DNA of 64,000 nt, taken from assembly GCF_000230735.2 (NCBI RefSeq), contig NC_019962.1, positions 3,224,001 through 3,288,000 of the forward strand. The letters run 5' to 3'. This document shows positions 56,429 through 57,059 of this stretch, in pieces. Each line of letters opens with the position of its first letter. Positions within the stretch are counted from its first letter, which is position 1. Source of the DNA: Natrinema pellirubrum DSM 15624 (lineage in GTDB: Archaea; Halobacteriota; Halobacteria; Halobacteriales; Natrialbaceae). Below the pieces are notes generated by a model. It ran no database searches. It saw only the letters and a list, made by a program, of their open reading frames with translations, and was not told where the DNA came from. The position numbers and the translations under genes are program-made.

Positions 56429-56564
56429 GTGCGGTGGCGCGCGCTGAACTGTGCCGAGCGGGAGTGAGGCACAGTTCGAAACCGTGCGAGGGATGAGCGA
56501 GCGACTCTGGAGCGAGCGAATCGGCTGGGGAGGGCGTGGCCACCCCGTGTTGCCACGATAGTAG
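56429..56564 (+). repeat. Dispersed structured repeat, copy C
   Basis: It begins GTGCGGTGGCGCGCGCTG and contains GTGCGAGGGATGAGCGAGCG before ending CGTGGC, an 11-base loop, GCCACG and ATAGTAG. Its variable part holds a perfect ten-base stem, GAACTGTGCC paired with GGCACAGTTC. Compared with copies A and B the outer blocks are nearly identical, while the inner stem sequence differs completely yet stays paired. Confidence 0.78.
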
Positions 56565-56654
56565 CACACTCATCGTCGATATCATCCTTCTCAGACACAG
56601 TCATCGATCGATCATCTCGAGCAGACACCGTCAGATTCCACACCAGTAACAGTA

Positions 56655-56664
56655 GATATAAGTT
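56655..56664 (+). promoter_or_regulatory. TATA box for the candidate structured RNA
   Basis: The sequence gatataagtt is centred 28 bases before the first G of the folded element, where haloarchaeal transcription would start. The upstream bases show no clear purine-rich BRE. This spacing is the main reason for reading the element on the plus strand. Confidence 0.6.
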
Positions 56665-56686
56665 TCTACTACCCAACAATTAGTAC

Positions 56687-56770
56687 GGAAGCCGATCTCC
56701 AGCAGGGGACGTCTCGAAACGTCCCGGGTGGACCTAGCACCCGAGACCCGGCTTCCAACCCGAGAGGGTT
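56687..56770 (+). ncRNA. Candidate structured RNA: three-way junction plus GNRA hairpin
   Basis: Bases 56687-56694 (GGAAGCCG) pair perfectly with 56749-56756 (CGGCTTCC), and the helix continues inside with TCTC (56696-56699) and GAGA (56743-56746). It encloses two adjacent hairpins: GGGACGT/ACGTCCC with loop CTCGAA, and GGGTG/CACCC with a seven-base loop. Directly after comes AACCC, loop GAGA (GNRA type), GGGTT. About 58 of 84 bases are paired. A TATA box lies at the right distance upstream. It does not fit a tRNA, 5S, SRP or RNase P RNA that I can recognise. It could be a free small RNA or a cis-regulatory leader for the zinc-finger gene. Confidence 0.6.
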
Positions 56771-56778
56771 AGCAAGCC

Positions 56779-56895
56779 ATGATTCAGTTCGTTCTACCGG
56801 GATATAAACGTCCCGCACGACAGCCGTATCGCCAGTCGCGACTACACTCGAGTCCGTCCCCACTCGCTCGAGATCCCACGGAGGCGGGCCGATGA
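56779..56895 (+). CDS. Possible upstream ORF coupled to the zinc-finger gene
   Basis: This frame of 38 codons starts MIQFVLPGYKRP, eight bases after the RNA element, and its stop codon overlaps the next start codon as ATGA. The product would be basic and Arg/Ser/Pro-rich, unlike haloarchaeal proteins, so it may be chance. The exact coupling, however, is what would be expected of a leader peptide gene. A second TATA box (gatataaac) inside it could start a separate message for the next gene. Confidence 0.25.
   Translation: MIQFVLPGYKRPARQPYRQSRLHSSPSPLARDPTEAGR
56801..56809 (+). promoter_or_regulatory. TATA box within an inverted repeat, before the zinc-finger gene
   Basis: The sequence gatataaac is flanked by CGGGA and TCCCG, arms that could bind a dimeric regulator over the TATA box. 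Transcription from it would start near 56830, giving a leader of about 60 bases before the zinc-finger start codon. Confidence 0.45.
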
Positions 56896-57059
56896 GTAGC
56901 GACCCCGAGACCGGCGACGACGACACGCCGTTTCCCGACTGTCCGACCTGCGGCGAGCCGGTCGCGTTCGTCGTCGCCACGGGGCCGTCCACCGGCACCG
57001 TCGAACCCTGTGGCTGCTCGTTGCCGCCGGCCCTGTTGACGCCCGATCGGGAGGACTGA
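56892..57059 (+). CDS. Small CPxCG-type zinc-finger protein
   Basis: This 55-residue protein starts MSSDPETGDDDTPFPD. Two cysteine pairs, CPTCGEP near residue 17 and CGC after EP near residue 43, form a putative one-zinc finger of the kind found in many haloarchaeal proteins under 70 residues. Deletion of such genes in Haloferax affects diverse traits, but no function is known for this one. It lies between the structured RNA and the convergent histidine kinase gene. Confidence 0.7.
   Translation: MSSDPETGDDDTPFPDCPTCGEPVAFVVATGPSTGTVEPCGCSLPPALLTPDRED

Follow-up and report, generated by a model that had tools for sequence, protein, structure and literature searches.

The RNA at positions 56687-56770 of the window, by which we mean the whole 64,000-nucleotide stretch of Natrinema pellirubrum DSM 15624 DNA analysed here, is one copy of a structured RNA that had not been catalogued before, and comparison of its copies suggests that it probably serves as a cis-acting two-state translational leader that buries or exposes a start codon. 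The original prediction, made from the letters of the window, proposed a new structured RNA behind a promoter of its own, acting as either a small RNA or a leader. It did not foresee that the RNA forms a multi-copy family spread across the order, that the genes downstream of it are interchangeable, or that its architecture has two states.

RNAfold gives a minimum free energy (MFE) of -45.2 kcal/mol for the window RNA, against -30.3 +/- 3.2 for its dinucleotide shuffles (z = -4.7; none of 200 equally good). The MFE structure, the centroid and the fold drawn in the original prediction are identical, so that the closing helix, its TCTC/GAGA extension, the 7- and 5-bp inner hairpins and the trailing GNRA hairpin are all found where they had been placed (Table 1). 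P3 directly abuts P2 without a linker, the 3' side of the P2 loop carries a conserved GAA(A), and P4 is variable and at times missing in other copies. The structured element runs past the predicted end at 56770, continuing with an alternative helix up to the AUG at 56779 and then with the hairpin P5 inside the upstream open reading frame (uORF). Nor could the RNA be matched to a known class: an Rfam 15 scan of the window returned no match at the gathering threshold, crcB included, and only chance-level ones at E <= 10, and tRNA and tmRNA scans of the window found none.

Table 1. Coordinates of the cassette and its parts in the window.
Feature	Positions	Strand	Basis and remarks
Whole cassette, ~410 nt, promoter to zinc-finger stop	56647-57059	+	blastn between non-orthologous copies
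Promoter, BRE/TATA-like, CAGTAGATATAAGT	56650-56663	+	sequence; fixed spacing across copies
P1 5' strand, GGAAGCCG	56687-56694	+	RNAfold; 7 of 8 P1 pairs changed on both sides
P1b, TCTC / GAGA	56696-56699 / 56743-56746	+	RNAfold; 4 of 4 pairs covary
P2 hairpin, 7 bp, GGGACGT-CTCGAA-ACGTCCC	56706-56725 (56706-56712 / 56719-56725)	+	fold, covariation
P3 hairpin, 5 bp, GGGTG-N7-CACCC	56726-56742 (56726-56730 / 56738-56742)	+	fold, covariation
P1 3' strand, CGGCTTCC	56749-56756	+	partner is 56687-56694 or, for GGCTT, 56774-56778
P4 hairpin, 5 bp, AACCC-GAGA-GGGTT, GNRA tetraloop	56757-56770	+	RNAfold; present in both predicted states
Alternative-helix strand, AAGCC	56774-56778	+	flush with AUG; complement of 56750-56754 (GGCTT)
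Coupled uORF, 38 aa, MIQFVLPGYKRPARQPYRQSRLHSSPSPLARDPTEAGR	56779-56895	+	stop overlaps next start by 4 nt
P5 hairpin, CGGGAT-ATAAAC-GTCCCG	56798-56815	+	inside uORF; covarying third pair
Putative C(P)xCG zinc-finger microprotein, 55 aa, CPTCGEPV...ATGP...EPCGC	56892-57059	+	motif; paralogues

The stems are kept paired among relatives, and all helices covary. Over P1, P1b, P2 and P3, 73 diverse sequences aligned to the core model R2, a fitting that itself favours structure, contain 210 cells with double changes as compared to 72.0 +/- 6.7 after shuffling and 20-81 in slid controls. In the same set 85.3% of cells are paired (29-50% in the slid controls) and 21 of the 24 pairs have changed on both sides. 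P3 is paired in 100% of cells, with an essentially invariant inner GUG/CAC and covarying outer pairs (GGGUG/CACCC, GCGUG/CACGC, GAGUG/CACUC, AGGUG/CACCU and GGAUG/CAUCC), and these variants are visible without model fitting. Strongly conserved unpaired nucleotides are few outside the P2 loop. We used the model-based alignments A3 and A6 in place of a first MAFFT alignment, on which RNAalifold under-predicted the fold because a P2 strand was misaligned. Chance GC-rich hairpins might be expected in so GC-rich a genome, but this explanation is already contradicted by the z-score, the covariation and the order-limited distribution, and we give it practically no credence.

The RNA sits in a cassette with the order putative TATA promoter, three-way-junction RNA, coupled uORF and C(P)xCG zinc-finger microprotein. 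Alignments of non-orthologous copies begin in the TATA region and extend no further than the zinc-finger stop (window ~56647-57056), and the flanks are unrelated except in the syntenic orthologues L002, L003 and L012. Homologues are plentiful: a DNA query with 56640-56780 has matches in 27 of the 61 genomes searched, with up to 14 in one genome, and the covariance model R1 finds 1-28 copies per genome in 27 of 29 Natrinema genomes and copies in 81 of 125 genomes (24 of 29 genera) of the family Natrialbaceae. The highest copy number, 32, belongs to a genome of another genus than Natrinema, and the window genome has five copies. Since dispersed copies are alike from promoter to stop between unrelated flanks, and copy number varies from 0 to 32 between species, the cassette could be viewed as a mobile or selfish repeat of 410 nt whose RNA structure serves propagation and not regulation. 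We consider this quite unlikely, as the syntenic orthologues L002 and L003 are kept between species, other families have this RNA in front of different genes, and no copies were found in the viral sequences searched: phage records gave no RNA match, and pattern matches in viral contigs failed the covariance model.

Nearly all Natrialbaceae copies inspected keep the order TATA-like box, RNA, uORF AUG and overlapping zinc-finger ORF, although a simple motif recognised no zinc-finger ORF in 21 of 133 copies. The RNA-free genomes G002, G025, G110 and G061 are also without the zinc-finger family, while G012, G017 and G022 have exactly one RNA and one zinc-finger gene each. All five intact zinc-finger genes of the window genome carry the RNA leader. 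A few zinc-finger genes have no RNA (L302, L308). A sixth paralogue on a small replicon of the window genome (L311; G000, contig C3, 7852-7989) has an in-frame stop and no RNA leader, and is an apparent pseudogene. In the Natrinema, Halostagnicola and Halopiger plasmid records that we checked, the uORF and the zinc-finger gene are both unannotated. Two further observations concern the surroundings of the copies. Two near-identical cassette leaders ~1.1 kb apart (L113 and L116; G087, 2400217 and 2401360) are a recent tandem duplication, and a separate dispersed repeat at 56430-56600 (with GAGCGAGCGA and CCACGATAGTAGCACAC), just 5' of the cassette, recurs in the flanks of copies L020, L080, L084, L076 and L090.

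The TATA box that had been placed 28 bases upstream of the RNA corresponds to a TATA-like box, ATATAAGT, at 56656-56663, centred ~27.5 nt upstream. Its spacing is fixed across copies, being 27 nt in 31 of the 54 copies with a recognised box. Compared by sequence, the leader is shown to start ~27 nt after this box, to contain the covarying three-way junction (P1/P1b, P2 and P3) and to end at the AUG, and the uORF and zinc-finger gene foreseen downstream are present as open reading frames. Between the small RNA and the leader that the original prediction had offered, we favour the leader, with an AUG at most ~40 nt downstream in almost every copy examined. An independent sRNA that acts in trans and only happens to lie 5' of the microprotein gene would fit such a compact and very stable molecule behind a promoter-like box at fixed spacing, but it is very unlikely given the co-occurrence of RNA and gene, the lack of any terminator-like U-run before the AUG in the window sequence, and a strand complementarity that reaches right up to the AUG and has coevolved with it.

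This complementarity defines a second fold. Folded alone, 56748-56790 forms a GGCTT:AAGCC helix just 5' of the AUG, and comparison shows that the 3' strand of P1 is complementary to the AUG flank and that the three strands change together across lineages: GGAAGCC/GGCUUCC/GAAGCC stands beside GGAAACC/GGUUUCC/GAAACC (L071) and, in Haladaptatus, GGAAGACC/GGUCUUCC/AAGACC, while GGGUUC/GAACCC is found 5' of the AUG in other families. A register-free helix score reaches 4.95 as opposed to 3.02 +/- 0.20 when the strands next to the AUG are exchanged at random between sequences (0 of 1000 permutations), 4.86 as opposed to 2.91 +/- 0.21 for distinct combinations alone (0 of 2000) and 12.54 as opposed to 10.60 +/- 0.18 in an overlapping larger set (0 of 2000), kinship being ignored in all three cases. 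The pair count of this helix in fixed columns is not significant, because in several lineages the model places this strand 1-2 columns off; the register-free permutation preceded sight of that result. At standard 37 °C parameters, which are not those of the haloarchaeal cytoplasm, the alternative fold is, across 62 copies, a median of 3.65 kcal/mol less stable than the MFE structure, and in 17 of them it is itself the MFE. The window copy favours the P1 fold by 7.2 kcal/mol, and therefore a factor would have to do real work there. The alternative helix is cut to 3 bp or absent in some copies (for example L137, L278, L280 and L099). The permutation and the energies together describe a platform of riboswitch type, with two mutually exclusive helices that have a strand in common, and the conserved structured core in a 5' leader position relative to genes would likewise suit a riboswitch-type element.

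We propose that the leader, transcribed from the TATA box, would work as follows. With P1 formed, the AUG-proximal strand would be free and the ribosome could start; with P1 open, its 3' strand would pair with the AUG-proximal strand and the start site would be buried. A protein or ligand recognising the P2-P3 core (GUG/CAC and GAAA) would bias the choice of fold. Our guess is that ON is the default, because P1 is the first of the two helices to form as the RNA is transcribed and has, on average, a slight edge in stability, and that the factor represses, possibly as feedback. In Natrialbaceae the AUG would open the short uORF and, since the uORF stop overlaps the zinc-finger start, the switch would extend to the zinc-finger gene via termination-reinitiation, with P5 as a further conserved RNA element on the way. 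In other families the switch would act directly at the start codon of the downstream small gene.

The uORF stop and the zinc-finger start overlap by -4 in 69, -8 in 28 and -11 in 7 copies (104 of 112), so the first ORF ends on the start of the second in a geometry from which coupling is predicted. Among 95 copies the third pair of P5 is G-C 49 times and A-U 42 times, and the encoded residues change in step, Gly to Arg and Pro to Leu. P5 keeps its pairing while the amino acids change, and it is therefore the RNA, not the peptide, that is conserved. Since the peptide is not conserved beyond P5, and its later codons lack the GC3 bias of the zinc-finger gene (0.59 versus 0.81), we rejected the idea that the uORF encodes an attenuator peptide. 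The microprotein itself can be assigned to the putative C(P)xCG zinc fingers by its two Cys-pair motifs, a length of ~50-80 aa and four Cys that are invariant in 16 paralogues; no Pfam or NCBIfam family scored above cut-off. In genome G162 (L304 / L099) a uORF with P5 (CGGGATTTAAACGTCCCG) and a CPxCG...PCGC protein are preceded by only a weak three-way junction, so that P5 and the uORF may form a separable module.

Matches of R1 in other families are weak; the core that is kept there consists of P1, P2 with GAA(A), and P3 as GGGUG-N6/7-CACCC. The core model R2 has matches in 110 of 342 genomes of the order and 46 of its 89 genera, some of the weak ones being chance, and of 29 weak matches inspected most end flush at an AUG, usually that of a small Cys-containing protein. 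Across a 295-genome sample of the phylum all R2 matches fall inside the order and none elsewhere. Three weak matches in the order (L286, L288 and L289) were set aside as chance, with GTG replacing the AUG in near-identical sequences from three genomes of the same genus, and bacterial pattern matches (Agrobacterium, Streptomyces, Lachnospiraceae and others) were rejected, as none of them matched the model convincingly and the best, Streptomyces, reached E = 0.0065.

Outside Natrialbaceae the RNA lies directly 5' of various small genes: SWIM zinc fingers, as on Haladaptatus plasmids, 48-aa CPxCG proteins in Halocatena and an unclassified relative, CxRC/CCxxC fingers and other Cys-rich proteins, and a few Cys-free ORFs (for example L276 and L268). 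A related element is found beside a transposase on Halobacterium salinarum plasmids, which makes the RNA accessible in a model organism. A plasmid search with the DNA of one distant relative returned no match. At the Haladaptatus-type loci L095 and L109 the gene after SWIM resembles, by eye, a SprT-like zinc protease (HELIHAW motif). Several of the loci L273-L295 share a protein family of haloarchaea that has no name ('IALGEGAAxCxVCG..LREG..GRVGxCSDxATQSSWPVLL') and for which neither Pfam nor NCBIfam has a model; it recurs behind the RNA in several families.

What kind of signal would such a leader read? The signal could be a protein, either the gene's own product or a shared regulator, or else a metal or a small ligand, and both options overlap with the two-state leader reading. 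The RNA would work like a translational riboswitch or like an autoregulatory leader, and is a putative member of either. It is possible, if tentative, that the three-way junction is bound by the zinc-finger protein, or by the basic uORF peptide, which would then limit its own production in the manner of ribosomal proteins. The near-obligate pairing of RNA and gene and the many paralogues, each with its own leader, speak for such autoregulation, and the scarcity of conserved unpaired nucleotides better suits recognition of helices by a protein than a small-molecule pocket. As a general rule, however, it is hard to reconcile with the same RNA core before unrelated proteins (CPxCG, SWIM and CxRC/CCxxC fingers as well as Cys-poor ones), and the uORF peptide is unconserved beyond P5. 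Somewhat doubtful, in our opinion, is direct binding of a metabolite or metal ion by the three-way junction, where zinc is the obvious guess because the downstream products are putatively zinc-binding. The conserved junction core, the variable closing stem and the strand-swap platform are what a riboswitch would have, and the genes that follow the RNA are mostly for small Cys-rich proteins of unrelated families; yet strongly conserved unpaired nucleotides are few outside the P2 loop, and no transport or biosynthesis genes that might indicate a ligand were seen downstream. That the RNA represents a new natural riboswitch class specific to Halobacteria, which binds a metal ion or a redox/stress metabolite directly, buries the start codon and governs a large regulon of zinc-binding microproteins, seems to us rather unlikely.

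Under either kind of signal the two-state leader remains our preferred reading. It would be a structured, covarying and apparently bistable leader across one archaeal order, at up to ~30 copies per genome, that is invisible to Rfam; we found no earlier description of the RNA there or, among open-licence papers, in the literature. For haloarchaeal genetics it is a candidate natural case of start-codon control in which no Shine-Dalgarno sequence takes part, and unnamed microproteins by the dozen would fall into a single putative regulon under a common signal.

Several known systems invite comparison. Ribosomal-protein autoregulatory leaders are structured and tied to one small gene, with recognition elements that are mostly helical. 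The RNA described here is likewise a structured leader with a small gene, but one RNA core serves mutually unrelated downstream proteins. In type III toxin-antitoxin systems an RNA antitoxin lies 5' of the toxin gene. The likeness is in a multi-copy structured RNA directly 5' of a small gene, whereas here there is a single RNA unit without tandem repeats, no nuclease-type toxin, and a strand that overlaps the start site. Haloarchaeal C(P)xCG microproteins (HVO_0758 and relatives) are small, with two Cys-pair motifs and many per genome (PMC10716476, PMC11241148). The downstream proteins share size, Cys pairs and multiplicity with them but form a CPxCG...GP...PCGC subfamily that no Pfam or NCBIfam model matches above cut-off, and our literature search found no report of a structured leader for C(P)xCG genes. 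Short overlaps couple archaeal translation by termination-reinitiation, according to two papers (PMC6728339, PMC10666635). The -4-nt stop/start overlap is like that of the gene pairs described there, although here ORF1 is a short uORF whose peptide shows no conservation other than through an RNA hairpin.

A further parallel is with strand-swap translational riboswitches, such as the archaeal fluoride switch (crcB) and the synthetic theophylline switch E in Haloferax (PMC8241225). A 2021 paper counted a single natural archaeal riboswitch as experimentally determined, the fluoride one of Thermococcus, and hiding the Shine-Dalgarno sequence together with the AUG functions as a synthetic switch in Haloferax (PMC8241225). 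As in these, the haloarchaeal RNA has a 5' leader position, a conserved junction core, a variable closing stem and one strand in two exclusive helices, with access to the AUG controlled, here as a prediction. Unlike them, it has no Rfam (crcB) match, would bury an AUG flank without an obvious Shine-Dalgarno sequence, and occurs in dozens of copies before paralogous microprotein genes.
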